Below the pieces are notes generated by a model. That model saw nothing but the letters and a program-made list of their open reading frames with translations. It ran no database searches and had not been told where the DNA came from. Below are positions 11,526-59,774 of a stretch of 64,000 nt of DNA, piece by piece (position 1 is the stretch's first letter; every line of letters begins with the position of its first letter). The translations under genes were made by a program, and so were the position numbers. The stretch comes from Imbricaverruca yamaguchii (taxonomy: Eukaryota > Arthropoda > Thecostraca > Neoverrucidae), in assembly GCA_034440575.1 (NCBI GenBank), contig JAOTOL010001637.1, positions 852,501-916,500 on the forward strand, written 5' to 3'.

Positions 11526-11574
11526 GACACAAGCCAGAGGGTCCAGGGGCTGTGAAAGATTGATTGATTGATTG

Positions 11575-11627
11575 ATTATTTCGGCTTAAGGGCGCATCGA
11601 CTACCAAGGTCATTTTGCGCCCATAAC
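11575..11627 (-). other. 3'-terminal hairpin of LINE-A
   Basis: On the minus strand: gttATGGGCGC, then AAAATGACC, then AGTCGAT, then GCGCCC. The outer 6-bp stem GGGCGC/GCGCCC and the TGACC loop motif are conserved with the other copies, but the inner stem is weak here. It is followed by ttaagccgaaataatc and the ATCA-repeat tail. Confidence 0.8.
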
Positions 11628-11923
11628 TCTTGTAGCTAACAAAGTACAGTATCAAACTTTACATCGTTCGCAACCTTCAAAATGGTCCTATTGTGGTACA
11701 AAGTTTACATGCCATGTATATCAGCGAGGAGAATATATTGCGGATAATGATACTGCAGATAAGAAGTCCATCAATCGTCCCGACCTGGTCAGACCCAAAA
11801 TGACGTCTACGCTCATCAGCGTAATGAGGACACGATATCAAAACGTGGCGAACTGTTAGCGGTGCATAACATCTCGAGCACAGAGGATTGTCGCCACCGC
11901 ATAGTAAATACCCATGCGTAGCA

Positions 11924-12007
11924 CATTGATTGATTGATTATTGGGGTTTTAGGGTGCGTCAACCCTATTGAGTTATATTGCGCCCATAACAAGGCTCCCT
12001 AAGCGCA
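11924..12007 (-). mobile_element. Solo LINE 3'-hairpin insertion (84 bp) nested in LINE-A, 11-bp TSD
   Basis: The insert is flanked by catgcgtagca at 11913-11923 and 12008-12018. On the minus strand it holds about 17 bp of lead, the decayed hairpin (GTTATGGGCGCAATATAAC ... GACGCACCC) and an (ATCA)n tail. The outer stem carries a GCGCCC to GCACCC change. The private TSD shows that this second hairpin within the LINE-A 3'UTR is a separate, later insertion and not part of the LINE-A terminus. Confidence 0.82.
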
Positions 12008-12086
12008 CATGCGTAGCATAGGTATGCCCGATACGGAGACGGCACAATGCAACCTCTTCTTGTCGACGTTTGCGACAGGACGAGCC

Positions 12087-15000: not shown

Positions 15001-15480
15001 CTCTTCGTGTAGGAATTGCTCCATCAGACGTCGACGGCCATTGGCATCTTCGCATCCCCAAACGGTATGATGTGAATTAAAGTCACCTAAGAGTAAAATT
15101 GGTTCCGGGAGCTGAGAACAAAGAAGTTTCATCTCAGTAGATGGAAATGAAGTCTCCAGAGGCAGGTAAATACTGCAGAATGAAATACTTTTATGACCAA
15201 ACTCCACCCTGGCAGCGACGGCTTGGAGGCGTGTGTCCATCACTAGTGGTTGCGAGGGAACACTATGGTGGATGCCCAGTAGCACTCCACAATGGGAAAT
15301 AGTGTCGGATGCTACTTCTTTTCGGTGGAGGGTGTAGCATTTCACCTGGATTGCGGTGTCCGGCGACAGCTTGGTCTCCTGAAGACAGAACGCCACCGGG
15401 CAGACCCTGTTCAGAACTGCCTGCAAGTCATGGGCACTGCTTCTAAACACCTCCAGTTCTATAGTAAAACAGTCTGTATA
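12087..15480 (-). pseudogene. LINE-A ORF2 (endonuclease-RT-RNase H), broken
   Basis: Polyprotein for target-primed reverse transcription, in pieces. From the N-terminus: the endonuclease/exonuclease/phosphatase domain at 14902-15450 (CLQETK, LGDFNSHHTVWG) and on to 14704 (GSDHFP); a linker and RT N-terminus at 14071-14364 and 13394-14011 (HYRPISLTSCLCKLMERL, VPQGSVLSVALFAIMIND, active-site FVDDFAIW); the RT C-part at 13094-13387; and RNase H at 12087-13064, with YTDGS, the SSKLVAI region where family members have SELVAI, FTDSLSSL and WLPSHVGISGNELADAAA. At least five frame changes or stops separate the pieces, so it cannot make one protein. The catalytic FVDD and the endonuclease D/H residues are still readable. 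The likely source of mobility when young was this element's own RT. Confidence 0.92.
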
Positions 15481-15499
15481 AAGGGCTATGTTAAAAGGG

Positions 15500-17318
15500 G
15501 TTAAGACATGTCAGTTCATGGCGAACCAGCCGGGGCCCACGGGTTCGATGCTGTGCGCGCTCGCGCCCTCGGACTGACTCCGCCGGTCGGCGAGACTGAC
15601 CAGAGCGAGGCACGCTTCCGGCCGGCCTGGGGATGTGGGGGGGGGGGGTGGCCCCATCACCCTCGCAGTCTCTGCGGGATGAAGAGAACTGGCTTGGAGA
15701 GATGGAAACGATGGGGAGCAAGCCCCGCGATCCTGTCTCCCTACATTTGGCGACGTATCCCTCGACCCAGCTCGGGATGTCCGGCCTGAAGCCCCCATAT
15801 CCGGGGTCCCTGGGCGGACCTCACTCGGTAGGCGTGATCGGGTCGTTCAGGGTGCTACTACCGGCACCCGACCGGGGACCACGCCCTTCTCTTCGGAGAT
15901 GGTTGGTGGGGGAGGGGGTTGGGGTGGTTCGGGGTGTAGGAATGGGTTGGGCAGGTTTAGGGGTGGTGACGTACGCGGGTAGGGATTGGATCCTCGTCGA
16001 TTCGACGCGACTCTGAGACGTTTGTGTCTCGAGGCTTGGTTCCGGAGAACTCCTTGGCTCTTCCCTAACGGGAATAGAGCACTGGACGGAGGGGAGGCAG
16101 GGATGGGAGTGCTGAAGGTAGGGGTTGAAGTGGTTGGTGATGGGTCGGGCTTGGTTGTGGATGGACGGGCAGGTCTTTTTCCTCGCTGGACCTGGACCCA
16201 GTCTCCTTGAGGGGTCGCTACAGGGTCGGCAACCGAGGACTCTCCCATCGCCGTCTGGGGAGAGGACATAGCTCTTTCTCCGATTGGTGTGCGCTCATTG
16301 CCAAAGGCGAGCATTATGGCACTCAGTTGACTTATCAGATAAGAGGCACTCATGTGTGTGTGCGACTGCTTCGGCGACTGTTGTGCGATGTTGGAGTTCA
16401 GCTTGACCTTCGCTGCATATGATATTCTCGGGTGTGCTGCCTCGTAGATATCGCGCGCCTCACGGAATGTGATCTTTATGAAACTTTTTATTGTAACTAT
16501 TTCTTTTTCTCTCAAGAAAATGGGACAAGAAAGATCGTAAGTGGTATGGGGGATTTGGCCTGGGCCGCAGTTTGAACAGTGCGGACTCTCCGCCTCAGAT
16601 TTATCTTGCACATGTTGTGCAAATCCACACCGTCCACATGTTCCTCGGTTCCGACAATGCTGTGACGTGACAAAAACGGGAGCATCGAAAGCATGTCATG
16701 GGATTGGGTAGAAATACGCGGACCTTCACACGAACATATCCGACGAAAATAAACTCGGGAAGATCTGTCATGTGAAAAGTCAAGATGATGTTTGTTGGTT
16801 GTGATACCTATCCTTTCCTAATTGAAATTCTGCGGGCCTCTACTACTCCGCACTCTCTTAGGCCATCTACAATGTCGGTATCTGAAACATCTTGTAGGTC
16901 GTAACAGATAATAACTCCTTTGGAGTAACTTTTCGTGTTGTGGGGCTGAATCTCGATACGTACAGTGACTGTTCGCCTGCTGGATTCTTGTCGTTAAGTG
17001 TACGTTATTTCTGTTGCGTCCATCGCCCCCTTTGCATCTTCAGCAGTTTCAAATTTAACTTCTCACCCTCTGTCTCTGAGTTTTTTCGCACCTGAGCACC
17101 GATCCTAGCTTATCACATGCTTCCTTCCTTTGGAACGGAGTAAGCAGTGAAGGTTTCAAATTTTCCTCCAGCGATTTTACGATCAGAATACGTGGTGCAG
17201 GCACTCACTTGGAGGCCGGGGCCTCTATGCACTCCACTCATTATCCTGGCAGGCCGGATTGTCTGTCCCCTACTGTAGGGGGTAGGTGGGTTGTTTTTTA
17301 TGTTGGAATTTGCCATGA
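15500..17318 (-). pseudogene. LINE-A ORF1 (gag-like zinc-knuckle protein), broken
   Basis: RNA-binding ORF1, decayed. A minus-strand frame at 16601-16783 contains FLPNPMTCFRCSRFCHVT (a CX2CX4H-type knuckle remnant), and 15847-16611 continues with HCSNCGPGQIPHTTYDLSC, a second knuckle remnant. A Ser/Pro/Thr-rich linker and a basic C-terminal region (QVQRGKRPARPST) follow. The equivalent of the LINE-B start codon lies near 17316 (MANS...). Frameshifts separate the N-terminal half from the knuckles. Function is by comparison with ORF1 of LINE-B and LINE-D. Confidence 0.8.
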
Positions 17319-17635
17319 AGTGTTTCTTAGTTTCCGCTCCCCGGGCGCCCCACCGCATAGGGCCCTACTGAGGGGACGCCTAGGTCCCGCGCACGGGAGG
17401 TCGCCAGGCGCCCGAGGAGCTATAGGGGCAGGCGGCGCCTTCGCTCGGCCGGGAGGGAGATACTCACCACCCCGACCGAGATCCAGCACCGCCCACCCCT
17501 TGACCCCAGCCGGCCGGGCCGGCGGGCACTGGGAAAATCCCAGGCCCCCGGCCCAAGGCGACCAGCCACTTAGTCCGTGTGAGGCCCCACGGGCCCGCCC
17601 GCCCCTCCGGGATATCGGGACCAAAGAGGTGTGTT

Positions 17636-17673
17636 GGTCCCCCGTCACAACTAGCACCGTGCGACGGGGGACC
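17636..17673 (-). promoter_or_regulatory. Perfect 11-bp hairpin in LINE-A 5'UTR
   Basis: ggtcccccgtc at 17636-17646 pairs perfectly with gacgggggacc at 17663-17673 around a 16-nt loop. The same hairpin occurs at 38865-38902 (LINE-B) and 50076-50113 (LINE-D) at the equivalent place between the 5' end and ORF1. Its role (packaging, translation or internal promoter) is unknown. Confidence 0.75.
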
Positions 17674-17987
17674 TCAACCTCCAGACTCCGTCAACCCCGG
17701 GTACGGGCCGAGGGGGCGCGGCTACCCCGATAAAACTGAGCTGGTTGGCAGGGCCGGGGAAGTTGCCCTGCCTGTTCATAGTAGGGATAGTTGGTGTTGC
17801 AGGGTCACGTGAAGGACATGGATGTTGGGATGATATGGGAATTGGAATGGGAGCGTATGGATGGAAGGACGAGTGAGGCACTCCTGGTCTCACCCCTCGC
17901 CGGTATGATGGTCGCCGGGTCATTGGGGCACTTAATCCTCCCCACCGCGTAAAGGTGGTGCCTCATCGGAGGGAGGGCTGTGAAAGA

Positions 17988-30029: not shown

Positions 30030-31425
30030 CGTCCGAGTGTACCTGTGGTGACGGAGAGGTTGAGAGGATATCTGTAGCGACAGGGAAGATCAGTGTGTAC
30101 GGGGAGAGGCGGATCATAACATACATGAAGTCATTGGGAGGTATAGAGGGTACCTGTCAGCTAGCCATTTCGCAATCGACCAAAATATTATCATGTAGCG
30201 CCGGCAATTTGTATGTGTCAAAACCTGGTAAAATACGTCGCAGCGCTGACAATATAAACGCAAAGCGGATCGCTTTCAGGTATCGAAATATGTTCTCAGA
30301 GTTGATTGTTTGCATATCATCTGCCCGTTGTCATATAACAAGTTGCGTGTTATTGTTATAAAGCAGCCTACGCTCCATTTTCAAATGTTCGCAAGAAAAC
30401 AGAACATGGAGGACCGTCAGAATCGGTGAACAGTTTGGACAGAAAGACTTTTCTTCTCCACATAGGGAAGTTAGTTATTAGGGCTTAAGGGCGCATCGAC
30501 TACATTGGTCATGTAGCGCCCATCCACATAGTGAATAGTTGTGATGATGGGTCAGGGTGTATACGTGGTGGCCGGGAGGGACAGAGCGTACCTGTGGTGA
30601 CGGGGAGGGGCAGAGTGTACCTGTGGTAACGGGGATGGTCAGAGCGTACCTGTGGTGACGAGGAGGGTCGAGTGTACCTGCGGTGACGGGGATGGTCAGA
30701 GCGTACCTGTGGTGACGGAGAGGGTCAGAGCGTACCTGTGGTGACGGAGAGGGTCAGAGTGTACCTGTGGTGACGGGGAGGGGCAGAGTGTACCTGTGGT
30801 AACGGGGATGGTCAGAGCGTACCTGTGGTGACGGAGAGGGTCAGAGTGTACCTGTGGTGACGGGGAGGGGCAGAGTGTACCTGTGGTAACGGGGATGGTC
30901 AGAGCGTACCTGTGGTGACGGGGAGGGGCAGAGTGTACCTGTGGTAACGGGGATGGTCAGAGCGTACCTGTGGTGACGAGGAGGGTCGAGTGTACCTGTG
31001 GTGACGGGGATGGTCAGAGCGTACCTGTGGTGACGGAGAGGGTCAGAGCGTACCTGTGGTGACGGAGAGGGTCAGAGTGTACCTGTGGTGACGGAGAGGG
31101 TCAGAGTGTACCTGTGGTAACGGGGATGGTCAGAGCGTACCTGGGGTGACGGGGAGGGTCGAGTGTACCTGTGGTGACGGGGATGGTCAGAGCGTACCTG
31201 TGGTGACGGGGAGGGTCGAGTGTACCTGTGGTGACGGGGAGGGTCGAGTGTACCTGTGGTAACGGGGATGGTCAGAGCGTACCTGTGGTGACGGAGAGGG
31301 TCAGAGTGTACCTGTGGTGACGGAGAGGGTCAGAGTGTACCTGTGGTAACGGGGATGGTCAGAGCGTACCTGGGGTGACGGGGAGGGACAGTGTACCTTT
31401 GGTGACGGTGAGTGACAGTGTACCT
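30030..31425. repeat. 29-bp minisatellite (about 30 copies), host of two insertions
   Basis: The unit acctgtggtgacggggaggg plus (t/g)cagag(t/c)gt is 29 bp, with 27-bp variants (gaggagggtcgagtgt). One or two outlying units lie at 30030-30075, the dense array runs 30576-31425, and about three further units sit at 42241-42330 on the far side of the 31426-42240 transposon. About 480 bp of unrelated DNA at 30095-30545, containing a solo hairpin, lies between the outliers and the main block. Confidence 0.93.
30466..30522 (-). mobile_element. Solo LINE 3'-hairpin insertion (57 bp) with 9-bp TSD
   Basis: The insert is flanked by tccacatag at 30457-30465 and 30523-30531. On the minus strand it reads ATGGGCGC, CTACAT, loop GACCA, ATGTAG, TCGAT, GCGCCC, then cttaagccctaataactaac. 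This is the best-paired copy: the 6-bp outer stem and a perfect 6-bp inner stem CTACAT/ATGTAG. Nothing of the LINE body is present. Confidence 0.83.
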
Positions 31426-32146: not shown

Positions 32147-32511
32147 GTAAGTGCTAGGCGTATAAGAATACATTTCCCTCATGTAAATATTCTGTATTAT
32201 GTGCATTACCATCATCAGACATCCCTTTGAAGCTGATATGCGTACAGATTATATGAATTACATTTCAGTTATGAAAGGGAAACCACAATTTTAAAAAATG
32301 TCCTATTGTACTCAGTTCGCCGGGTCTGATAGCTTCGGGTTTCACAATGGAGAAAATGTATGTTGCTCCGATTACCACAACATTAACCTTGGGCGGGCGA
32401 CAAATGTTCCCAGGTTCCGTAATCTATGTAGATATTTTTACTACGTCAGTTCCCTGAGGACACAGTTTTGATCGCATCTGAAAAATCAAATTGATATTTT
32501 GTAGTTGGTTG

Positions 32512-32562
32512 GTTATTTGGGCTTAGGGGCGCATCGACTGCTTCGGTCATACAGCGCCCATA
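32512..32562 (-). other. 3'-terminal hairpin of LINE-B
   Basis: Minus strand: gttATGGGCGC, CTGT, ATGACCGA, AGCAG, TCGAT, GCGCCC, ctaagcccaaataacc. The outer stem is GGGCGC/GCGCCC. The inner stem CTGT/GCAG covaries with LINE-D (CTGC/GCAG) and the 30466 copy (CTACAT/ATGTAG). It ends 5-10 bp from the TSD, as expected for an RT recognition structure. Confidence 0.85.
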
Positions 32563-32639
32563 ACAATGTTAGCTTGATAGCTTGGGATGATTAGTGCCAA
32601 CAGTAGTGCACGACCATTCAGAACACATGCAGATATCTT

Positions 32640-32990
32640 CAGCGAAACAATGAAAGATAAAGAGCAAGCGCAAGAAAACATTGGTGAAACAGTGAAACGG
32701 GAGTAACATCAGTGAAACAGTGAAGCGGGAGTAGCACCAGTGAAACAGAAACAGAAAGAGCAAGCGTGAGCAAAATCTGTGGAATAGTGAAATTACATCA
32801 GTGGAACAGTGAAGCAGAACGAGCAAGCGCGAGCAAACATCAGTGGAACAGTGAAACGGGAGTAACATCAGTGAAGCAGTGAAACAGAAAGAGCAACCGC
32901 GAGCAAACATCAGTGGAACAGTGAAACGGGAGGAACATCAGTGAAACAGTGGAACAGCAAGATCAAGTGCAAGCGAAAATCAGTTGGAGT
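32640..32990 (-). repeat. Tandem repeat in LINE-B 3'UTR (cagtgaaacagtgaa-type)
   Basis: About ten units of a 25-50-bp motif built from cagtggaacagtgaa, acgggagtaacat and gagcaagcgcgagcaaa. The short relative cagtgaaacagtga is at the same place in LINE-D (44753-44768), so the seed of the repeat belongs to the family and has expanded in LINE-B. Confidence 0.85.
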
Positions 32991-33025
32991 GACATGTCGC
33001 GGTTCCGAGCGTTTAGTGCTACACG

Positions 33026-36000
33026 TCAGTGAGGTGTGTAAATCGCTCTGAAGTTAACATCTGATAAAAAGCGAAACAGTTGTCCAGACGTTATCGCGCG
33101 CGAGCGGTCACAAAGGAGGTCGCGGAGTGACAGCGACTGTGCGGCTCCAAAAAATCGTCTTCGGTCATTGGCGAGCAGAGGGCACGAGACCAAGACGTGA
33201 CGCACAGACAGTGGTGCGCGACATCGAGGGCAACTTGGCCTGTCTTCCTCACAGAGTAGATGGTGGTGTGTTGGGTGAGTGTGTCCGAGCCGAAGACGGC
33301 AGAGCACGACCTCTTCACGTCTCGTCCGGCGGTAGGATGAAGTCCATTCTCCGAGGCATGGTTTTATCGCTCGTAGTTTATTATCCAGCAACATGTCCCA
33401 GGTATACTGCCATTTTTTAGAAATAAAGGTCATGATTGTACGCCGATATTCTCTCGCTGGGAGCGGCATAAATCGCTGGTATGGGGCTTGGGCTGCACGT
33501 TTCGCAGCAGCATCCGCTGCCTCGTTTCCCACGATGCCGACATGGCTTGGAATCCAACAGAAGGAGACTGATTTTCCAGCATGTGTTAGTGATCTGAGAA
33601 GCCGTAAGACGTCCTGTACGATGGGATCAGGTGAATTGAACTGGTTTAGCGCCCAGAGACTACTGAGGGAATCAGTAAAAATAACATGCGAGTCTTCCGG
33701 TCCTACTTCGATATAACTGAGGGCCTTGATGATGGCAACCAACTCTGACACATATACTGTTGCATGGGGTGGCAGTGAAAAAGATCTCGACACTGGACCA
33801 ATTACAAATGCACTGCCAACGCCAGTATCTGACTTTGATCCGTCTGTATAAATTTGGACGTATGCGTCAAAAGAGGCTATGTGTTCTAGGGCATGTGACA
33901 AACCGTCGTGCGGTGTAGCATGTGCTTTCTTCATCACGGAGAGCGACATATCAATTGTTGGATGGCCCGCCTGCCAAGGCGGTGTTTGTGGAAAACCGAC
34001 CCGCATAATTCCCCGCAGTCGAATATCGCTATCCTGGAAGAGTCTGCGCATTCTGACGCAAAACGGGGTGCCATGTGTGACGCGTGCTCGTTCGAATGTT
34101 GCAATCAGGCGGTGGGAGAATATGTAAGTATACGCAGGATGATCTGGGAATTGGCGCACTTTACACGCGTAGCGCATCCCGAGCATTTCGCGACGGAGCG
34201 AGAGTGGTGGCTCGTGGGCTTCAGCCAGAAGGCTCACAGAAGGTGAAGTGCGGAAAGCTCCGGTCACGATTCGGAGCGCCGAATGGTGTACCACATCCAG
34301 TGATCGCTTGCTCGTTGTGCAAGCGCTGTCATATATAAAACATGCGTAGTCGAGTTTTGAACGAACGAGAGAACGGTACAGTAGAAGCATAGTTTTCCTG
34401 TCTCCTCCGTAGGACGTGCGCGCAACCATCTTCAGAAGGTTGAGCGATGTAAAACACTTCTCTCGGAGTGCTTTAAAATGTTCCTTGTAACTGAGACGAA
34501 CGTCAAAAGTAACTCCCAGAAACCTGGCAGCGCGCTGGAAGGGAACTGGTTGCCCATACAGCTGGAGAGCAGGGTCTGGGCAGCTTCTGCGGCGCCGGCA
34601 GAAATGCATCCCTACAGTTTTTGAGACAGAAAACCGAAACCCGTTCTTGGAGCTCCACCTCTCCAAGCATGCTACCGCCAACTGAAGCTGCCGTGCCATT
34701 GCCGGTGCAGTGGATGTGCAGCACCAAATTGCGAAGTCGTCCACGAACAGTGATCTACCGATATTACGCGGAATGGACTCGCAGATATCGTTGATCATGA
34801 TGGCGAACAACGCCACGCTCAACACACTTCCCTGTGGTACCCCTTCCGTTTGTGGGTACCGATCCGACATACAGCTTCCGATCCGAACACGAAAAAAAAC
34901 GCCTCGACAGAAAGTTCTGGAGGAAGAGGCCCATGGATCCACGAATTCCACATTTGAAGACCTTCATCAGTATGCCGTAGCGCCAGGTGGTGTCATACGC
35001 TCCGTGGATGTCGAAAAACACTGCACCAATGTGACGGTTTTGCTGGAACGCTGCACGTACCACTGTATCAAGGGCTAAAAGATGGTCAATGGTGCTGCGG
35101 TTTTTCCTAAAACCACACTGTGCGTTGTTTAAAATGCCATGTCGTTCAAGAAACCAGGTCAGACGCACGTTCACCATCTTCTCCATGAGCTTACAGAGTG
35201 ATGATGTGAGTGATATTGGTCGGTAGTTTCCCGGGTCTATGCTGTCTTTTCCGGGCTTTAATATAGGGATCATAATGGCCTCACGCCAAGTGGGTGGGAA
35301 ATCTCCTTTCTTCCACAGTCGGTTCAGCGTTGCCAGTACGGCATCAAGTGCACATGATGGAAGATGTTTGAGCATGTCGTTGTGTATTTGGTCGTCGCCT
35401 TCGGATACGCTCCGAAGGGTCGCAATAGCGGAACGAAGCTCAGCTAGCGTGAATGGCTCGTTGTAACTTATACGTTCAGAAGTAAAAAAGTTAAGTGGCT
35501 GTCTCTCGCAAGTGGCTTTGTGACGTGTGAACAGGTCGTCATCACTGTAGCACCTACATCTGTTCGATATTGTGCGAGCCATCTCGTTTGCCACGTCGAC
35601 CGGCTGGGTGATGTCTCGGCCGGCAACTCGTAGTAATGGCAGAGGTGTGGAGCTGTATTTACCGGCAATACGCTTAAGCCGAGACCAGACCTGAGATATG
35701 GGTGTGGAGCGATTCAGTTTGTCCACATAATTCCTCCATGAGACCCTCTTAGCGTCCTGGATAGTGCGTCTAGCATTGGCTCGAGCCTGCCGGAAGGCGA
35801 TGAGGTTTTCCGTACTACTCCTTCGGTCGAAAGCTCTGAAGGCGCGTCGCCTTGCCCGAATTGCCTGACGGCACTCTTCCGTCCACCATGGAACTGGTGC
35901 GCGACGGGGAGTGCCAGATGTGCGAGGGATAAACTCAGTCGCGGTCTGCACAAGCAGGTTGGTGAGCGATTCCACAGACATGGGGGTGACACCAGGCCTC

Positions 36001-36749
36001 AAAGTCTCCTCTAGTCGCGTCTCATATCCTCCCCAGTCTGCCTTCTTAAAATTCCACCGGCATGGTCTGGTCCCGAGTACCGCGCCATCCTCGTAACCCA
36101 GCCACACCGGAAAGTGGTCACTCCCCAGAGGGTCGTCGGCCACAGACCAGGTAAAAAGTTGTGCGAGCTCAGGGCTGCACAAACTAAGATCTAGGGCAGA
36201 GGCATGGCCAGAGGGCAGCGTAAGGTGCGTCGGTGTTCCAGAATTAAGAATGCACAAGGATACATCGTGCATCAAGGACTCCAAACACCGACCCCGTGCA
36301 TCAACGTCGTCGCATCCCCATACTGTGTGGTGAGCGTTAAAATCACCTAGTAGTAATACCGGCGGTGGCAACTCTGACATCAGGCGCCGCAGCTCAGTAG
36401 AAGGGAATCCAACACCGGGTGGCAGGTACAGTGAGCAGATCGATATAGGACGATTATTAAAATGCACTCTTACAGCAACGGCCTGCAACTTGGCGTGTAG
36501 CACCAATCTCTGTGCAGTCACACTATGGTGGACAGCCAGCAACACTCCACCGTGTGCTACGGTGTCTGAGGGAGTGTCGTTACGAAATACTGAGTAGCAT
36601 TTTAGGTTATATGAGTAGTTCGGCGTCACCTTCGTTTCTTGGAGACAGATGGCCGCCGGACAGTGGCGGTTTGACAGCACCTGGAGGTCTTCTTCGCTGG
36701 TCCTCAGCCCCCTACAGTTCCATTGTAAGATTGTCCGCGGTTGAACCAT
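33026..36749 (-). pseudogene. LINE-B ORF2: endonuclease-RT-RNase H polyprotein, one frameshift
   Basis: About 1240 codons from ATG at 36749. Order: EEP endonuclease (LQWNCRGL with Asn, CLQETK with Glu, LLGDFNAHHTVWG with Asp/Asn, SDHFP with Asp/His) in the first 230 residues; linker; RT (YRPISLTSSLCKLMEKM, FFDIHGAYDTTWRYG, EGVPQGSVLSVALF, active site FVDDFAIW); RNase H (YTDGSKSDTGVGSAF, SELVAI, FTDSLSSL, WIPSHVGIVGNEAADAAA giving D-E-D-D); and a C-terminal Cys/His motif (CEEDRPSCPRCRAPLSVRHV). All catalytic residues I can check are present. The only break is a +/-1 shift near 34890-34900, in a run of eight A (plus strand), between the two long frames 36749-34764 and 34951-33026. A sequencing error there is possible. 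It acts at the nicked chromosomal target to reverse-transcribe its RNA. Confidence 0.95.
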
Positions 36750-36889
36750 TTAGAACGGGTTAAAATAGGTATGGAACAGTACCATAGACGATATCACAGC
36801 TAGACACTCTCGTCGTCCAGATGTCCATTGTAAAACAGTCCAGAAAATGCAAACATGAACGTACCGTACTATGAAGGTAAAACAGGTGT

Positions 36890-38551
36890 CCTCTCACCCG
36901 GTGACCTCTGACAAGATCTTGGGCCTCCCACGCCTGGTGGCGATGGCGTCCACGGGGATGGCCGCTTGCGTCCAGTTGCCGGGGTAGGCGGGTCTCTCAT
37001 CTCACCCCCGCGGGGTGGTATGGGGGTGGGCCCATCACCTTCCCTGTCTCTGCCGTTAGCGTGTGACTGGCATGCGAAGTTGGTGATGGCGGGGGTGTCG
37101 CCGTGGGCGACTGTCCGGCTCGCGCGCTCGGCGAGGGGTCCCTGGACCCAGACCGAGCTGCTCTGCCAGACCCCCCCATGTCGGGAGCTCTCGGGTGGAC
37201 CTGAACACTGGGCCCTGGTCTGGTCACCGAAGGTGCCACGACTGGTACCCGACGGGAAGTCGCACCGGTTCCTCTTGAAGTAACTGGCGACGGTTGACGG
37301 GTAGAGGTGGTTTCGGAAGGTTCGGGGATGGATTGAGTGGTGGTGGTGCTGGTGGAGGTTGATGGTAAGGATTGCAGGTTGGCGTTGGAGTGCTTGCCGG
37401 GCCGCTTGGTCCGCTGGACAAGACTCCACTCTTCCTGAGCTCGCCCTGTGGCTGGCTCCGGTGCAGTCGCTTGAGGGGCCCGTGTTGGTGAAGCACCGCG
37501 TTCCGCATCCTCGGAAGGGGGTGCACGCTGAGATTGCCTCGTTTGGGTGGGGACAAGTACGCCAAGAGAGCGGAGAAGAGCACTCAGCTGTGCGATAAGT
37601 TGTTCAGTGTTGCCTGTTGTTGCTGGAACCTGTTTGACTGATGTATTTTTAACTGTCGAGGCGTATGATACTTTCGGGTGGGATTTTTCATATAGATCCC
37701 GAGCTTCGCGGAACGTAACCTTTGCAAGTACTTGATGGAAATAATTTCTTTTTCCTTCGAGTAACTAGGACAGGTGCGGTCAAACGAAGTATGGGGATCC
37801 TGTCCTCTGCCACAGTTCACACATAATGGTATTTCGGTGGTGCACTGCTCGCCTGTGTGGTCGAAAGAAGCACACCTGCCACACGCGGGGCGGTTCCGAC
37901 AAAATTTGCTTGTGTGGCCGTATCTCTGACATTTGAAGCATCGCATGGGGTTGGGGATGAAAGGTGGCACCTTAACACAAATGTAACCCACACGTACCTG
38001 AGAGGGCAAGTCCGTCCTACTGAAGGTCAGAATGACATTGTTGGTCGGAATAAGTTCTCCACCTCTTCTCACTTTCATCTTCTTCGCCTCAGTCACTCCA
38101 AATTCTGACAACCCATCCACTATCTCATCTTCAGGTACATCCCTCAGATCAAAGCAGTTAATCAGTCCTCTCGAAGTGTTCTTTGTTTTATGTGGTTCAA
38201 CTGTAATTGGAATTTCCACGTTCTGAGTTTCGTTTCCTTTGTTCCTTTCCGCACACTGTAAACTAGCTCGGAACAACTTAACGCCCTTTCCGCCTGCTCC
38301 GGTATCGCAAACTCGACTTCGAGTCCACCATCTTTCAATCTCTCGCATCGAACGATCTCGCCAAGTCTGTCACATGCGTTCCGCATTTGAAAGGGGGACA
38401 GGGACGCGAGGCTTTTGTTCCTCCCTCGGAACACAAGAACACGACGTACCGGGGTGCCCTCCGCAGAGGTGTACCGATCTCGGCCGCAGTAGGCGTTGGT
38501 CTGGCCCTCACGGGAGGGACCAGGAAAGTGTTTTTGTTTAGTAGATGCCAT
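36890..38551 (-). pseudogene. LINE-B ORF1: gag-like zinc-knuckle protein, frameshifted
   Basis: Starts at ATG 38551 (MASTKQ, the same start as LINE-D). N-terminal domain at 38162-38551 (VLVFRGRNKSLASLSPFQMR). After a shift near 38230, frame 37584-38348 carries LINCFDLRDVPEDEIVDGL and three cysteine knuckles: CFKCQRYGHTSKFC, CGRCASFDHTGEQC, and CVNCGRGQDPHTSFDRTC. A second shift near 37745 leads to a Ser/Thr/Pro/Gln-rich linker with VQRTKRPGK, and a Pro-rich basic C-terminus ends near 36890, about 140 bp before ORF2. The knuckles bind nucleic acid in this family, and I infer an RNP role. At least three frame changes, so it is probably non-functional unless some are read errors. Confidence 0.85.
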
Positions 38552-38864
38552 GTGTTGTATGTTTTGTTCTGCTCATACGGTGCCCCACCTCAGAGGGGCC
38601 CTACTGGGCCTGTGTCCCGCGGACGGGAGGTCGTCAGACACCAGATGAACTATACGGGGCAGGCGGCGCTTTCGCCCGGCCGGGAGAGAGAGACTCACCA
38701 CCCCGACCAGGATCCAGCGCCGCCCACCCCTTGACCCCGGCCGACCGGGCCGGCAGGCACTGGGAAACCCAGGCCCCCAGTCCGAGGCGACCTGCCACTT
38801 GACCCGCGTGAGGCCCCACGGGCCCGCCCGCCCCTCTGGGATATCGGGACCAAAGAGGTGTGTT

Positions 38865-38902
38865 GGTCCCCCGTCACAACTAGCACCTTGCGACGGGGGA
38901 CC
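38865..38902 (-). promoter_or_regulatory. Perfect 11-bp hairpin in LINE-B 5'UTR
   Basis: ggtcccccgtc (38865-38875) and gacgggggacc (38892-38902) are exact inverted repeats. The loop differs by one base from LINE-A and LINE-D (ccttgc versus ccgtgc), while the stem is unchanged in all three. Confidence 0.75.
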
Positions 38903-39247
38903 TCAGCCTCCAGGACTCCGTCAACCCCAGGGGACAGGCCAAGGGGGCGCGGCTACCCCGATAAAACCGAGCTGATGGGCAGGACCGGGGAAGTTGCCCT
39001 GCCTGCTCATAGTAGGGATAGTTAGTGTTGTAGGGTTAGGTGAAGGACAAGGATTGGGATGAGATGGGCATTGGAATAGGGGCGCATGGATGGAAGGACG
39101 AGTGAGGCACTCTTAGTCTGACCTCTCCCCGGCCGCCTGGTGGTCTGGCCGCCGGATCCTTGAGGCACGCAATCCCCCCCACCACGGAAAGGTGATGCCT
39201 CATCGGGGGGGAAATTGATATTTTGTAAACTATACTCTTTTTAACAG

Positions 39248-39890: not shown

Positions 39891-41664
<1,774 letters not shown>

Positions 41665-44677: not shown

Positions 44678-44694
44678 GCAGACCAACTATAGTT

Positions 44695-44750
44695 GTTATT
44701 TGAGATTAAGGGCGCATCGACTGCGTCGGTCATGCAGCGCCCATAACATC
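44695..44750 (-). other. 3'-terminal hairpin of LINE-D
   Basis: Minus strand: gttATGGGCGC, CTGC, ATGACCGAC, GCAG, TCGAT, GCGCCC, ttaatctcaaataac. The outer stem and a perfect 4-bp inner stem (CTGC/GCAG) are intact. Confidence 0.83.
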
Positions 44751-44878
44751 GTCAGTGAAACAGTGAGATGCAATCATCATCAATCGACATTGGAATGGAA
44801 GTCACATCATCAGACAGTGAAAGCAATCGAAAATCAGTCAGAATGACGTCATGGGGTGAAATGCATTGTGGAATACGA

Positions 44879-47800
44879 TTACCGCCCTGGATAGATGACA
44901 GCAAATCGTATTTGTGAGAAAAACTCGAACAGTCGTCCACTCCGAACCACATATGACCTATCGCCTAGAATGGTTGCCATGGTCACTGTGGATACCTCTC
45001 TTCCGAAGTATCGTCGTCGTTGGGCTAAGAATCGAGGGCACACCTTAAGAACATTTCGCATTGTCAGCTGGATATCACAACGGGTCACACATTGGTCTTT
45101 CCTCATTCCGCAGTAGGTAGCTGTGGGTGGCATATATGTGGCCAATCCGAATCCTGGCGAGTACCACCTCCTCCTTTCGTAAAACTCTGAAAGATGACCC
45201 CCAGCGCCTGAGACTTGGCTTGATGTTTCTCAGTTTGCTTTCGTCATTTGAGTTCCAAAGTTGTTGCCACTTTTCCTGGAAGAACGCATTGATTGTCTGG
45301 CCGAGGTGTGCTACTGGGAGAGACAGCGCACGGGTGTATTGGCTCCGCGCAGTACGCTTTACTGATTGGTCAGCCAATTAATTCCCGGCTATTCCGATAT
45401 GGCTGGGTACCCAACAGAGCGTTACGGTTTTTCCCTCTCGCTTAAACTTAGTTGAGCGCGGTAAAACGTCTTACACGATAGGGTCCTGCGGAAAAACAAC
45501 GTCTGTATTGCACAAAAGCTACTCAGGGAGTCTGAAAATAAGACGTGGTCGACATCGTTCCCTACTTCGATGAAGGACAAGGCCTTCGTGAATGCCAAGA
45601 GTTCAGCGGTGCAAACTGATGCGTGAGGAGGCAGCGTAAACGATCCGGTCGTGGCTCCTTTTATAATAGCACAACCCACACCATCAGCAGTTTTCGACAC
45701 GTCGGAATAGATGGCAGTACATGTGTGGTGGAGTTCGATGTGTTTTAGGGCTTTCATCCGAAACGATTCCGGGATAATTTCGTCCTTTGGGGTCACAGAC
45801 AGTGCCGTGTCCACTGACGGCTGTACCAATTCCCAAGGGGGAGCTGGCAGCGATACGTCCTTCGAATGCCGCGCATCTGAATACCGCTCCCTTCCACCAG
45901 CTCACGTAACCGCACACAGAAAGGAGGCAGAACATTCCGACGTGTAAAGCGAAACAGCGCAAGCGTACGGTGTCCGAAGAGTCCCAGTTTATCCCGTCTC
46001 ATGGCGAACTGTGCTTCATTAGCATCTGCCAGAAGGCTTGCTGTTGGAGAAGTGCGGAATGCTCCTGTGGCTATGCACAAGGCGGAGTGATGGGCAGTGT
46101 CGAGAATGCGCTTGCTGGAGGCACTGGCACAGCCATAGACAAAGCAGCCATAATCCAGCTTCGAGTGAATAAGCGATCGGTACAAGAGTAAAAGTGTAGC
46201 CCGGTCTACGTCATAAGTAGTGCGGGCGACACACTTCAAAATATTCAATGTTTTCCAGCACTTGTTTCCCGCAGCGATGTCTTGAGTCGATAATCAAATA
46301 AAACACCTAGAAACTTCGCTGATGACTGAGAGGGGTCTGGTCTTCATAGAGGTGAATTGCCGGATCTTGACAGGTGCGGCGGCGACAGGAATGTACTCCA
46401 ACAGTCTTATGAGTAGAGAAGCGGAAGCCGTTCATGTTACTCCAGTTCTCTAAACGGGATACAGCGAGCTGCAGCTGTATCTTCATAAAGGATGGACGTG
46501 AGGCGGAGCACCAAATTGCGGACGCGGAATGTCCTATCGGTTAAAAAAGTATGCATGAAGCGTCCCATAGCGCCACGCACACCACACCCACAGAGTTTCA
46601 TATGTATGGCGTATCTCCATGTTGTGTCATAGGCGTCTTCAATATCGAAAAACACTGCTCCCAGATGTCGCCTTTCCTTGGAACTAGTACGAGTGAGAGT
46701 GTCGAGTGTTAGCAGATGATCAACTGTGGACCTGCTCTTTCTAAATCAAGACTGGGCGCTGGCGAAGAGGTTCTGGTCATCCAAGAAGCACGTGAGGCGC
46801 GCATTCACCATCCTCTCCATCAGTTTGCAAAGACATGAAGTCAGGGAGATCGGTCGATAGTGCAGAGGGTCAGAGCCAGTCTTGTTCGGCTTCAGTATGA
46901 GAATTACAGTGGCTTCTCGACAAGAAGACGGAAACACACCGCTCTCTCAAAGAGTATTAAAACATGACAAAAGTACTGTGAGTGCGTTTTGTGGGAGATG
47001 TCTCAGCATCTCATTGTGGACACTGTCGGGTCCCTCGGATAAGCTGCGTAGTGTAGCCATTTTAGACGTGAGTTCGGCTATTGTGAATGGTTTACTATAT
47101 GCGTACCTCTCAGGTGTCATGAAGTCGATGGGTGAGGTTTCGCACTGAACTCTATGTTGCCTAAAACTGGCGTTCAGATCGCAGCTCTAACTTCGGTCAG
47201 CGAGAGCTCTTGCGATGGTGTTTGCTACGTCTATGGGATTAGCGATTGTATCGCCACCGACGTGCAAAACAGGGAGTGGTGTTGAGCGAGAGCGTCCAGA
47301 TATTCGCTTTATCTGGGACCATGCAGATATAGCATGGGTGGAGTGGTTCAGAATGCTCATTTATTTTTTCCATGATGCCCTCTTGGCTTCGCGTATCGTA
47401 CGCCGTGCAGCCGCTCTGGCTTTTTGGAAGATCATATTAGCTGTGGTACTGTTACGGTCAACTTTTCTGAAGGCGCGTCTACGGGCACGAGTCGTCTCTC
47501 GGCATTTCTCATTCCACCATGGTACCGGTGCACGCCGGTGCTTCCCAGTGGTGCGTGGGATGCACCCTGTGGCACATTCCAAAAGTAGAGATGTAAAATA
47601 TTCTACAGACACAGTAAGACCATTATCGTACAGGCTAAAAACATCTTGAAGTCGTGCCGCGAATTCCACCCAATCGACGTTTTGAAGCTTCCATCGTTGT
47701 GGTCTTGTTCCAAGGATGGCAGCATGTGTGACTCTAAGCCATATAGGAAGGTGGTCACTGCCGCTGGGGTCTTAGTCGACTGACCAGTCAAGAAGCTGTG

Positions 47801-48010
47801 CCAGGCGCGGACTGGCCACACTGAGGTTGAGCGCGGAGGTGCAGTGTCGGTTTGGTGGTCTTTTCGAAAAACCTGGTAGTCCTTCAGATAAAACGGGATT
47901 CCGGATAAAAGCTTTGTCTCCTGTAGACATACCGCTACCGGAGTGTGCACCCCCGCTTCGCCATGACTTGGAGTTTTTCCAGACCGGTCCTCACACCTCT
48001 GCAGTTTCAT
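44879..48010 (-). pseudogene. LINE-D ORF2, broken, RT active-site segment deleted
   Basis: Pieces from the N-terminus: an endonuclease remnant at 47603-48010 (VAVCLQETKLLSG); a linker at 47361-47669 (RAPVPWWNEKCRETTRARRRAFRK); RT at 46746-46937 (KPNKTGSDPLHYRPISLTSC) and 46437-46655 (FFDIEDAYDTTWRYA ... DRTFRVR); and the RT C-part at 45793-46248 (SLIHSKLDYGCFVYG). RNase H is at 45422-45829 (YSDVSKTADGVGCA, TAELLAFTKAL, FSDSLSSF), and the C-terminus is at 44879-45377. At about 46528 the frame passes directly from FRVR to sequence matching AIWCSA, so the block that holds VPQGSVLS and FVDD in LINE-A and LINE-B (about 155 bp) is missing. Confidence 0.9.
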
Positions 48011-48036
48011 TGTAAAATTTGGGATGACATAATTGT

Positions 48037-49809
48037 CTAGGTATGACTAGAGGAGTGACTAAGAGGGCTATGTATGGTATCCTGCGTGCGCCTTATGGCC
48101 GAGGGACCGAAGACAAAACGCAAACCCAGTGGAGGTGGGACGGACTTGGTGTTTTCGGATGCCCTCGGGCGAGACTTGGAGCGTTCCCCACCGGGCGGTG
48201 ATGGTGTCCACTGGGGAGATCGCTTACGCCCTGTCGGGGAAGGCCACGGGGCTACTTTATGGCCACCGTGGGGTGGGGTGGGCGCCGGGCCCATGATCCT
48301 CCCAGTCTCTGGGGTACATTGGGGACTGGCTCTGATAGTTGGGGGCGGTGGGGATGTCGCCCTGAGGGCCCCCACCCACTCGGGAGCTCGGCGAAGGCTC
48401 CCTGGGACCGGTTCGTGATGCCTGACCAGACGCGCCCTTGTCGGGCGCCCCTGCGGACGTCGACCGTGAGACGTAGTAGGGTCGCCGGAGGAGGGACCAC
48501 TGATACCCGTCCAGAGGCCACGCCGGGCTCCTCCGAACTAGTTGGTGGGCGTTGGTGAATTGTGGTGGTTTTGGATGGTGTAGAGATGGGCTGGGCTGGT
48601 GTGGGATCGGTGAAGGTGGTGAGTAAGGATTCCGGGTGGCTATCGGAGGGCCTGGCGGGCCTCTTAGTTCGTTGGACTCGATGCCATTTCCTCGGAGCTG
48701 TATCTGACGACGGTGGCATCGCGACTTCAAAGGCCGGTGGCAGTGAGACGACGCGCGCTTCTTCCTCCAAGAGGGTCTCATTCACCTGGTTTGGTGGTGT
48801 CGCTGGTGAGACGACAGGTACGCCGAAGGCGCGAAGGAGCGCACATAGTTGTGCGACCAGTTCGTTTATCTTGCTTACTTTTGTGTGTCGTGGGGCTAGT
48901 GTGGTGGTTCTGACTTTGGACGCATAGGATGTTTTAGGGTGAGGCTGGTCATGCATGTCCCTAGCATCACGGAATGTTATTTTGCGTGTGCTTTATTGCG
49001 ATTAGTTCCTTTTCCTTGATGTAAGTCAGACAGGTGAGGCCAAAAGAGGCATGAGGAACCTGTCCTCGCCAACAGTACACACATTTGGGTGTCTCAAAAG
49101 GGCACTGCTCAGTGACATGTTCAGATGAAGCGCATCTACAACATCCTGGTTGGTTCCTACAATACGTGTTTGTATGTTCATACCTCTGGCATTTAAACCA
49201 GCGCGTCGGGTCGGGAAGGAACACACGTACCTTGACACGAAGGTAGCCCGCTTGTATCTCAGAAGGTAAGTCTGCTATATTAAAAGTTAAAAGTATGTTG
49301 TTCGTCGTGATCTGCTCCCGTCCTGACCTTCATTTTTATCGCTCCTGTTACTCCAAGCTTGCACAACCCGTTAACAATCTCCTCCTCTGGCACGTCCCTC
49401 AAGTCATAACAATTTACTACTCCAAGCGATGTGTTCTTGGTTTGATGCGGTTCTACTTTTATCTGCACTATCTCGTCCACTCTCTCATCACGTCTTTTTA
49501 CACCATATACAAACTCGGATGTCTGCAAAGCTCTCTCCGCCTCCTTCGCTACCGCGAACTCCACCTCCAAAGATTCGTCCCTCAACTTCTCACGAAGGAC
49601 GATCTTACCGAACCGGACACAACCCTCTCGTCTTTGAAAAGGGGAAAGAGTGCCGAAGTTTTTCGTCTGTCCGCGGCAGATAAGAACACGGGTGTATGGG
49701 AGACTTGGTCTCCGTAGGTACCGAGTCAGCGACGCTTGTGTCAGCGCCGAGTGGTCTGGTCACTACGACAGTGACCAGGAGTGTTTTTGTTTTGTTTTGT
49801 GGATGCCAT
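48037..49809 (-). pseudogene. LINE-D ORF1 (gag-like), broken
   Basis: Start codon at 49809 (MASTKQ, as in LINE-B). N-terminal part at 49280-49585 (LEVEFAVAKEAERALQTSEF, then NTSLGVVNCYDLRDVPEEE). Knuckle region at 48967-49238 (FLPDPTRWFKCQRYEHTNTY, with the first Cys replaced by Phe/Trp context, then CCRCASSEHVTEQC and CVYCWRGQVPHASFGLTC). The C-terminal Pro-rich part is at 48252-48956 (VQRTKRPARPSD). Several frameshifts. The first knuckle WFKC lacks the first cysteine seen in LINE-B (CFKC). Confidence 0.82.
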
Positions 49810-50075
49810 GCAGTGTGTCTTGGTTTCGGCTCCTCGGGCGCCGCATCTCATAGGGGCCCTACTGGGAGGACGCCTGGGCCCGCGGATGGGAGGTCACCAG
49901 GCGCCCAAGGAGCTATACGGGGCAGGCGACGCCGTCACCTGACCGGGAGAGAGAGAGAGACTCACCACCCCGACCGGGATCCAGCGCCGCCCACCCCTTG
50001 ACCCCTGCCGGCCGGGCAATCAGGCACTGGGACGAAGCTCAGCTCAGACGAAGCTCAGGACCAACTAAGTGTGTT

Positions 50076-50113
50076 GGTCCCCCGTCACAACTAGCACCGT
50101 GCGACGGGGGACC
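50076..50113 (-). promoter_or_regulatory. Perfect 11-bp hairpin in LINE-D 5'UTR
   Basis: ggtcccccgtc (50076-50086) pairs with gacgggggacc (50103-50113). It is identical in stem to LINE-A and LINE-B although the surrounding 5'UTR has diverged and lost sequence (about 60 bp shorter just upstream). Confidence 0.75.
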
Positions 50114-50434
50114 TCAACCTCCAGGACTCCGTCAACCCCGGGGGCGGACCGAGGTGAGGGGGCGGCTACCCCGATAAAACTGAGCTGGTGGGTATGACCG
50201 GGGAAGTAGTCTGCTTGCTCATAGTACGGATAGTTGGTGTTGCAGGACCAGGTGAAGGACATGTATGTTGAGGTGGGATGGGCATTGGAGTGGGAGCGTG
50301 TGAATGGAAGGACGAGTGATGAACTCTTGGTCTGACCTCTCCCCGGCTTCCTGATGGTCTGGCCGCCGGATCCTTGAGGTACGCAATCCCCCCACCACGA
50401 AAAGGTGATGCCTCGTCGGGGGAGGCAGACCAAC

Positions 50435-56369: not shown

Positions 56370-56695
56370 GAGCACATTAGGGTGGCACTTAGTATGAGTG
56401 TGAATTTTCAACGTCTGAATTTCGAACTGCTCATTTGCCTGGTAGTTTGTATGGATGAGGAAACGGTAAATATGAAATTTGAGCCAGATCGGATAATATT
56501 TAGACCTCGCGCCATGACCTTGAAGTTTTATACATACACTAGCTGAAAAACCTATACATTCACTAGCTGAAAATGAAGAAGTAGTAGTGCATATGTACAT
56601 ATGTACATACATATGCTACCCCCTGTAGTGTTTAAATATTCATACCCCTTAAGTTTCGAAACATTGACGGACATTTCTTTTGCAGGTACGAGTCA

Positions 56696-58691
56696 ACAAT
56701 GACGACGAGATCTTCGAGTGAGATATGGCTAATTGGCTCTAACATACCAAAGATTACAAGCAGTAAGCTGCCATCAAAGGGAGATGTCCTTCGCGTTTTC
56801 TTCCACGTCCACCAGGCCGTGAAGGACACTGGTTGTTGCGGCCGCCGTGACGAAGGAGGTCCTCCCGTTCTGGGAGCGGGCCACGATCCCCACTCAGCAT
56901 CCTAAGAACGTCACGCGCAAGTTGCTCGCCCTCCATGCCGAGTGGTGTGCGCTGAGGAAAAATCGCTCCAGGAACAGGCCTGCTGACCAGGCCGCTCAGC
57001 AAGCCTTCCGGGAGGGCCTGAGGGACCTCTTCGATTGTGCAGCATCCGATGCCCTCGTCAGGATCGTCATCGAAGAGGATCGCTAGTTCCTCCTGGCTCA
57101 GCGAGAGAAGAACCGTCTAGGAAGCATGGCTGGCGTAGACCGGAAGCTTACCGACCTGGCGGCATGGAAGGTCGCCTCGTCCAAGTCCGAGGCCGCTCGA
57201 AAGAAAAAGGCTGCGCGGTACGCTGCCGAGGCCACGGCGACAGTGGAGCTCGAAGAGTTCGAAGGTGCTGAACCGGGAGTCAATTCGGCGGTCTCGTCTC
57301 AAGGTCCGGAAGGAGATGGCGGAGGAGATTCGAGTGAAGTTCTCGCCTACTGTCCCGCTAGTGGTCCGCTGGGACGACAAGATTGTGAAGAACCAAGGCG
57401 GCGACAAAGTGGACCCGATCGCTATCATCGTCTCCCGTGAAGGAGTGGACAAACTCCTTGCTGTCCCAAGGTTGGGTATCGGAACTGGCCGTGCGCAGGC
57501 GGACCCCGTCGTTGACGCCCTGCGAGACTGGGACCTGGGCGAAAGAGTCATCAGTCTGTCTTTTGACACGACGGCAGCCAACTCCGGCCAGCACACGAGC
57601 GCCTGCGGGCTGATCGAGGATGCCCTCGGGCGACCGCTTCTCAACTTGGCCTGCTGCCATTACATGCTGGAGTTGGTGGTGGACAAGGCGTTCGTGGAGA
57701 CGATGGGGCAGTCCAAGGAGCCGGACATCGTCATCTTCCAGCGGTTCCAGCAGCAGTGGAAGTTCATCGAGACGACACACGTCAAGCCCTTCATGGCCGA
57801 TGATGCCCCCAGAGAGCTGCTCGACGCCCGAGATGAGCTGATAATCCGATTCACGATGTAGCTGAGCCAGAGACAGCCCCGTGACGATTACCGGGAGCTC
57901 CTGGAGCTCAGCATCACCTGCCTTGGCGGGGTTCCTTCACGAGGAATTCGTTTCCTCAGACCAGGAGCGCTGCATCGAGCACGCTGGATGGCGCGAGTGA
58001 TCTACTCGTTGAAGATCTATCTGTTAAACACGAGGAGTTCGACACCACGAACCGTGAGAAGCGGGGGATCACGCGCTTTGTGCTTTTCTCGCTGCAGCTT
58101 TACGTCCCCGCCTGGTACGAGCTTCCAGTGGTTACGTCGGCTCTCCAGAACGACCTCAGCTTCATGAAGGCGCTCCTGAAGTAAAAGGACCAAGATCCAG
58201 CCATCCCCAAGGCTGCAGCCACCGGCTTCGGCCGTGATCTGTGGTACCTAGGTGAGCACCCTGTGGCGCTGGGGTTGTTTGACGAAGGGGTGCCTCCCGA
58301 AGTGAAGCGGCGGATGCTGGAAGCAATGCGGGACAAGCAGGGTATGGGGAAACACCCCAACAGGCTCACCATGGAGGCGTCCCTGGCTGCCTGGGAGGGG
58401 AAGACTTTGGCCGACTTCTGCAGCACCAACAGCAGGAAGTTGGTAGCGGACCTCGGCATGGCAGATGCTGAGTCCATGGGCGACGATCAAGAGACTTTGA
58501 GCCGGAGCGAAAGCCCGTCTTACCGCTCATGTCGTCAGAGAGCTGCCAGTCTGACCGTGACGAACGACCGGGCAGAGCGGGAAGTGGTGCTAATGCAACA
58601 ATTCAACCTGGACCTCACGACGAATGAGGAGCAGGGCCAGTTCCTCTTTCAGGTGGTGGAGCGGCACCGCCGCGAGCATCCGATGAAGTAG
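56696..58691 (+). pseudogene. hAT-like transposase, broken
   Basis: GC-rich coding remnants in shifting frames: SSKLPSKGDVLRVFFHVH (56760), then EVLPFWERATIPTQHPKNV (56847-57086, ending in TAG), then AQREKNRLGSMAGVDRKLTD, then 57265-57861 with VVRWDDKIV, GEREV-type spacing, ISLSFDTTAANSGQHTSAC and LNLACCHYMLELVVDKAF. The Asp in RWDDK, the Asp in SFDTT and the C..H of LACCHYM resemble the D, D and CxxH landmarks of hAT catalytic cores. The C-terminal part (57862-58691) includes FVLFSLQLYVPAWYE, a TAA near 58182, LGLFDEGVPPEVKRRMLEAM and LADFCSTNSRKL. I recall close relatives as an uncharacterised family abundant in aphids and Hydra. At least four lesions, so not functional. Confidence 0.82.
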
Positions 58692-58693
58692 GC

Positions 58694-59027
<334 letters not shown>

Positions 59028-59040
59028 GGGGGGGGGGGCA

Positions 59041-59230
59041 AGGCCAGGCAGTCCTCTGAGCTGAGTACAGGAAGCCACTGCTGCTGTCAGACGAGACACG
59101 GTGGATGGTTCCCGGGCTGACCCTACGTCCAGCACGTGTCTGTGAGGGTGGGGATGGGGGTAGGGTGGGGGTCGGACAGTCCACTGAGCTGGGCACATGA
59201 AACCAGTACTGCTGTCAGACAGGACACAAT
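59041..59230. repeat. Two-copy about 128-bp repeat
   Basis: cagtcctctgagctgagtac ... ctgctgtcagacgagacac near 59049-59100 is repeated as cagtccactgagctgggcac ... ctgctgtcagacaggacac at 59177-59228. Confidence 0.75.
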
Positions 59231-59514
59231 TAGCTCTTTTTATTCGTGCTGGACGTCGTTGTAGTCATCATAGCAGGCAAATATATATTTTCTGCCATTT
59301 TCGCATGCATTCTTCTGATTCCTGCAAATTTGTAGTTTGCACTGAGAGCTAAAGGGACTAAAGATGACCTAAGTGAGCATTTTCAGCGCAGTTGCACTAG
59401 ACAAGCTTTGATGTTTAACCTGCTAATAGGCAACAATAGGCACAATTTCAAGGTCATGGCACGAGGTCTAAATATTATCCGATCTGGCTGAAATTCCATA
59501 TTTAGAGTTTCCTC

Positions 59515-59575
59515 GTTGGTTGTTGGTTATTTCAGTTTTAGGGCGCATCGACTAGGTGTGGTCATTTAGCGCCCA
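59515..59575 (-). mobile_element. Solo LINE 3'-hairpin insertion (61 bp) with 13-bp TSD
   Basis: The direct repeat ttagagtttcctc at 59502-59514 and 59576-59588 flanks a 61-bp insert within the hAT right end. The left hAT end (56455-56475) lacks the insert, so the empty site is available for comparison. Minus strand: ATGGGCGC, CTA, AATGACCACACC, TAG, TCGAT, GCGCCC, taaaactgaaataaccaac. Both stems are intact. Confidence 0.92.
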
Positions 59576-59774
59576 TTAGAGTTTCCTCATCCATACAAAC
59601 TACCATGCAAATGAGCAGTTCGAAATTTGAAAGTTGAAAAATAAGTGCCACCCCAGAGCACATGTTACACTTCTTTGCCCATCCTATCTTTGCTCATCAC
59701 AAAAAAACGTGCAAAAGATTCAATTTTCAATCACGTAAACAAACAAGGTAACATCTTATTGTTTAAACCAGTGG

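Follow-up and report, generated by a model that had tools for sequence, protein, structure and literature searches.

A 61-bp insert in the window (the whole analyzed stretch of 64,000 nucleotides from Imbricaverruca yamaguchii) is a member of a numerous family of hairpins that correspond to the bare tail of a LINE. In most sampled copies with a target duplication, the 5′ edge is nearly fixed, at the U preceding the stem or no more than two bases from it. We consider, with a probability of about 0.6, that such copies arise when the LINE protein performs target-primed reverse transcription on a short RNA whose end lies at the stem and which was probably derived from LINE RNA by cutting or trimming.

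The insert lies between two exact 13-bp copies of TTAGAGTTTCCTC and reads, on the minus strand, as a T followed by a 34-nt hairpin with an outer (GGGCGC...GCGCCC) and an inner (GAC...GTC) helix and an AACC-type tail ending in AACCAACAACCAAC. The length of the insert, its 13-bp target site duplication (TSD), and its location inside the right inverted end of a hAT-like transposon had been described in the initial annotation and were reproduced here to the base; the make-up given there, a stem-loop plus a tail and nothing else, also held, except that the tail measured 26 nt instead of 20 bp. The features concerned are as follows.

59515 to 59575, minus strand: bare hairpin copy 1 (T, 34-nt LINE 3′ hairpin, and 26-nt AACC-rich tail), 61 bp; 65.5 bits with a covariance model that this copy helped to build, as one of five
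59502 to 59514, no strand: TSD copy 1, TTAGAGTTTCCTC, exact match
59576 to 59588, no strand: TSD copy 2, TTAGAGTTTCCTC, exact match
56378 to 59655, no strand: host hAT-like DNA transposon, 3.28 kb, with paired ends and an 8-bp TSD, GAGCACAT, at 56370 to 56377 and 59656 to 59663, read by eye
56457 to 56469, no strand: uninterrupted (empty) site within the left inverted repeat of the host, matching the duplicated 13-mer at 11 of 13 bases

The ends of the transposon align on either side of the insert, forming inverted repeats of 91.5% identity over 71 bp (59444 to 59514 against 56527 to 56457) and of 91.7% over 60 bp (59581 to 59640 against 56464 to 56405), and the uninterrupted left end thus represents the empty site. 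The claim that an intact site is visible within the window is therefore retained, with the correction that this site differs from the 13-mer at two bases. When up to two mismatches were allowed, it was also the sole further match to TTAGAGTTTCCTC in the window, in a loose search for which 1.1 matches are expected by chance. The host itself shows the features of a hAT element, namely, the 8-bp TSD (by eye) and terminal inverted repeats; two longer open frames inside it gave no Pfam match, and this copy may be non-autonomous.

A search of the species' own 767-Mb genome with the left end yielded 57 candidates, of which 40 were scored, with 46 matches. Thirty loci were fetched; as one of these is the left end in the window itself and five pairs overlap, they stand for 24 places. 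The insert was absent from the equivalent site, which was uninterrupted in 30 of the 30 fetched loci, and these empty sites are paralogous rather than orthologous. Considering the left end and the fetched loci together, the insert is no part of the transposon, in line with the initial annotation, for which an insert shared with other hAT copies would have spoken to the contrary; no such copy occurred among the 30. The reading that the insert is nonetheless a piece of the hAT transposon, or else a hairpin DNA transposon (MITE), might draw on its position in an inverted end, on its own hairpin form, and on 3 of the 46 hAT matches (L060, L068, and L070/L087) that begin at the site itself (query 90 to 92), but L060 and L068 contain no match to the insert, while L070/L087 has none at the site and carries a separate hairpin ~240 bp beyond the element. 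The one-sided A/C-rich tail, the TSDs, and the LINE homology are, moreover, retroposon marks, and we regard the chance of a DNA transposon origin as negligible. The insert instead combines the marks of a non-LTR retroposon: a TSD, a 3′ end with short repeats that is shared with LINEs, and paralogous empty sites.

The hairpin and tail of the insert form the 3′ terminus of all three LINEs recognized in the window, each of which is flanked by a TSD:

32504 to 39211, minus strand: LINE A, hairpin at 32515 to 32560, 16-bp TSD TACAAAATATCAATTT at 32488 to 32503 and 39212 to 39227
44688 to 50424, minus strand: LINE B, hairpin at 44698 to 44743, 10-bp TSD GTTGGTCTGC
11560 to 17974, minus strand: LINE C, hairpin at 11578 to 11623, 13-bp TSD TCTTTCACAGCCC, RNase H domain within 12087 to 13070

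Given the TSDs on both sides and the aligned 5′ ends, LINEs A, B, and C were taken as full-length; the 10-bp TSD of LINE B, which alone could be a chance match, counts because it adjoins the aligned 5′ end. LINE A codes for endonuclease, reverse transcriptase, and RNase H domains across two overlapping frames (Pfam), and the one frame scanned in LINE B gave no domain match. I-type LINEs, with the Drosophila I factor as type, encode endonuclease, reverse transcriptase, and RNase H and end in a short-repeat tail. LINE A, a putative I-type element, resembles them in its domain set and short-repeat tail and differs from the I factor in that the local tail is of the AACC/AACT/AATC type and is accompanied by a hairpin.

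With the covariance model, which was built from five window copies including the insert, ten hairpins were detected in the window at E values below 0.001, the five model copies among them. Two of the window's hairpins are listed here as further bare or probably bare copies:

30470 to 30522, minus strand: second bare copy, 53 bp, bordering a tandem array; TSD at 30457 to 30469 and 30523 to 30535, 12 of 13 bases alike
2410 to 2464, minus strand: hairpin that is probably bare, from a related subfamily whose tail is a CCA repeat; 10-bp TSD CCTGCTAAGT at 2400 to 2409 and 2470 to 2479, with five extra bases at the 5′ junction

The latter is probably the third bare hairpin of the window, with a weaker TSD. 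Since the pairs are invariant across the five window copies, these copies are uninformative on the fold. A wider alignment of 25 copies, hand-picked from the model matches, contained compensatory changes in both helices. They amounted to 16 cells, whereas shuffles, which leave relatedness in, averaged 3.8, and none of 500 shuffles reached the observed value; two weaker covariation measures were each reached by 32 of 500 shuffles. Covariation in the aligned sequences thus supports the predicted fold as a conserved 3′ stem-loop. A candidate third helix (columns 8 to 10 with 21 to 23) pairs in 61% of the cells of the 25 copies and in 80% of those of the five. Four hairpins (L034 1723-1767, L034 1459-1503, L057 2084-2127, and L079 1948-1994) have an outer stem of CGAC.C / G.GTCG with the inner motif unchanged and, by their sequence, appear to be related 3′ ends with compensatory stems. 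No Rfam family matched the window at the gathering threshold, and a single weak Rfam match at the insert was at chance level. The hairpin pattern also matched 11 loci (L001 to L011) in viral and bacterial collections, all of which were judged to be chance on reading; one stretch in the viral contigs matched a pattern, and no relatives of the LINE protein were found in those contigs.

A genome-wide search for hairpin copies, as suggested in the initial annotation, revealed 5,144 exact matches to a strict hairpin pattern in the 767-Mb genome (2,640 plus 2,504), compared with 0 plus 0 for the reversed control. Two samples were scored alike, with bare and LINE-attached copies being told apart by the junction GTTA before the stem. 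Sample A comprised 39 loci from 41 listed matches (965 candidates, 40 scored), the window itself and a second hairpin in an already counted locus being omitted, and over-represents the subfamily of the window. Sample B comprised the first 41 of 100 places listed, taken in contig order and hence from small contigs, in 40 stretches; these were not chosen by their flanks, and L119 and L120 represent a single duplicated locus. Bare copies were the commonest form in both: GTTA was lacking in 33 of 39 loci of sample A (present in 6) and in 31 of 41 of sample B (present in 10).

TSDs were detected in 21 of 39 copies of sample A and 29 of 41 of sample B, together 50 of 80, while five rounds of re-pairing the flanks gave one TSD in 78 to 80 each time. 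Other scoring settings led to a similar contrast, with TSDs in 25 of 52 hairpins of the sample A loci plus the window (re-paired mean, 1.18; maximum, 4) and in 25 of 41 of sample B (mean, 1.0; maximum, 2). In sample B, 27 of the 31 bare copies had a TSD, as against 2 of the 10 copies with GTTA (none of 6 in sample A). Copies in which no TSD was found numbered 18 of 39 in sample A (12 of them bare) and 12 of 41 in sample B (4 bare); L104 and L113, for which none was detected automatically, show an imperfect one by eye.

Some bare hairpins (L056, L106, L116, and window 30470-30522) lie in or beside tandem repeats, in which other units serve as empty sites. In addition, hairpins occur in pairs within about 60 to 90 bp, either each with its own TSD (L025 1944-2074 and L128) or in opposite directions (L058 1965-2083). 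A subfamily with a CA-repeat tail was represented by L095, L102, L124, L127, L096, and L074, with four of its five sample B members lacking GTTA; no LINE carrying this form was seen among the sampled copies.

The bare unit spans ~50 to 65 bp of hairpin and tail, with target duplications mostly of 9 to 16 bp. The TSD ended 0 to 2 nt before the first U of the stem in 19 of 21 TSD-bearing copies of sample A and 20 of 29 of sample B, or 39 of 50 combined, and in 19 of 27 when the GTTA copies of sample B were set aside. In 9 of the 29 the distance exceeded 2 nt, being at least 7 nt in 6 of them; L110 and L116, among these larger distances, sit in repeats in which, by eye, a further exact TSD copy gives a distance of 0, and those of L103, L112, and L114 may be genuine extensions.

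5′-truncated (dead-on-arrival) LINEs are common and keep the 3′ end and TSDs, with lengths that are spread. The bare hairpins are like them in retaining the 3′ end without the 5′ part and in their TSDs, and might accordingly be seen as ordinary random truncations at their shortest. Truncation of this kind does occur here, as the six GTTA copies of sample A have 68, 105, 222, 1497, and, twice, >1900 bp of LINE body in common with one another, copies truncated at 68 to 1497 bp, three of them at 68 to 222 bp, thus being present. Most sampled ends, unlike those of dead-on-arrival LINEs, nevertheless pile up at the hairpin base, and a clustering of 39 of 50 ends within 0 to 2 nt of one position is a spike that random truncation does not give, which makes this explanation very improbable. 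Among the ten GTTA copies of sample B, four have a stretch of at least 400 bp in common with another copy, and for L089 about 26 bp are shared with other LINE ends. In L096 and L117, the TSD lies only a few bases away, with a 7-nt 5′ extension in L096; L098, L100, and L115 make up the remainder. Such short 5′ extensions beside the edge (L096 and L089) are what trimming would leave.

In the mechanism that we favor, the LINE endonuclease/reverse transcriptase would bind the hairpin and then nick the target, priming would take place on the AACC-type tail, and copying would run to the end of the template RNA at the stem base. The template would end there because cutting or trimming of LINE RNA from its 5′ end had stopped at the hairpin, which would be stable and bound by protein, a step to which we give less weight, and nearly every bare copy would be dead on arrival. 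The initial annotation had likewise suggested target-primed reverse transcription, supplied by the LINE, of an RNA or cDNA that kept only the 3′ structure, and the shared LINE 3′ ends, the TSDs, and the domains of LINE A lend support to that proposal. According to PMC4176376, which concerns other LINEs, stringent-type LINE proteins bind 3′ stem-loops and need them.

The fixed 5′ edge could also be obtained from reverse transcriptase stopping at the stem, and the chief rival to a short template is release of the enzyme after the hairpin: reverse transcription would start on full-length LINE RNA, copy the tail and the hairpin, and fall off after the hairpin to which the enzyme is bound. Abortive copying of this kind would account for a fixed edge and for coexisting longer copies without RNA processing, and the 0 to 2 odd bases at the 5′ junction suit drop-off and template jumping. 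Moreover, in L114 two hairpins stand in tandem ahead of a single tail, which may reflect a template jump during reverse transcription. Stops caused by structure, however, are generally expected ahead of a stem or within it rather than immediately beyond its 5′ base, and we consider enzyme release the less likely explanation.

Whether bare hairpins form a SINE-like lineage of their own, in which bare copies give rise to their own hairpin RNAs, which only borrow the LINE enzyme, was also weighed. SINEs with a LINE 3′ tail are non-autonomous, have TSDs and many copies, and carry a promoter-bearing head (tRNA, 5S, or 7SL), usually being longer. The bare hairpins share with them a LINE-like 3′ end, TSDs, and many copies, and differ in being headless and about 60 bp in all. 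An independent lineage would fit the excess of bare over LINE-attached copies (33:6 and 31:10), and a defined RNA 5′ end is suggested by the subfamily-specific base before the stem, which is A in 29 of the 33 bare copies in sample A, drawn from the window's subfamily, and in 16 of the 31 in the mixed sample B; simple trimming does not predict such dependence on the subfamily. In sample A, a loop variant, AAACCTG, occurred in 13 bare copies and no LINE-attached ones. Neither the base before the stem nor this variant is a strong point. Against such a lineage, a variant with the loop AATGTA and TAAAGCCC, found only on bare copies within sample B and the sole variant counted genome-wide, lay on GTTA junctions in 46 of 426 cases, where about 2 are expected by chance; its presence on LINE-attached copies as well favors LINE RNA as the source. 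In addition, no promoter was recognized by eye in the ~60 bp (boxes A and B), no Rfam family matched, and the element consists of LINE-like hairpin and tail only, with no LINE-unrelated head. Transcription from bare copies is therefore judged quite improbable. It is unlikely, in our view, that bare hairpins represent a small RNA in its own right, with a defined 5′ end, spreading as a headless SINE-like parasite of ~60 nt made solely of the enzyme's binding site and a priming tail; if true, it would be the smallest kind of retroposon known to us.

Truncated LINEs and LINE-tailed SINEs are already known kinds. A family consisting of the recognition hairpin alone, in such number and with such an edge, was described in none of the open-access articles searched, judging by title and the start of the abstract, and Entamoeba SINE1 (PMC2996970) offered no parallel. 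For zebrafish ZfL2-1 and ZfL2-2 and eel UnaL2, PMC4176376 reports a 3′ stem-loop that is bound by ORF2 and whose deletion abolishes retrotransposition. The elements described here resemble these stringent-type LINEs, as presented there, in their 3′ ends, where short repeats come after a short stem-loop; they differ from those vertebrate LINEs in that the local LINE protein is presumed to recognize the hairpin. If reverse transcription of a short, trimmed RNA is right, the bare hairpins would be a natural test of the minimum need of a LINE enzyme, namely, a ~35-nt hairpin plus a short tail, and thousands of very similar short hairpins would scatter an RNA-protein binding site across the genome. 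The fixed 5′ edge would mark either the end of the template RNA or the point of enzyme release, and bears on LINE 5′ truncation generally.

Several further features of the window were noted. The LINE A protein had 1,575 relatives; among the 120 listed, those named by organism were arthropods, with the highest identity, 56%, to a protein of the barnacle Amphibalanus that aligned with 81% of the query. A 425-amino-acid open frame without a Pfam match at 39917-41194 has named relatives that include proteins of unknown function from Daphnia, Eretmocerus, and Ephydatia. At the LINE 5′ terminus (39086-39211, minus strand, and the same place in B and C), a CACC/GGTG hairpin enclosed by a pyrimidine/purine stem was noticed by eye, a layout reminiscent of the HDV-like ribozymes at LINE 5′ ends; no Rfam ribozyme matched this terminus, and three weak Rfam matches at the 5′ end of LINE A were judged to be chance. 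At their 5′ ends (17311-17974, 38546-39211, and 50055-50424), LINEs C, A, and B are 82 to 86% alike, compared with about 66 to 68% for the bodies, as if exchange or constraint had acted there.
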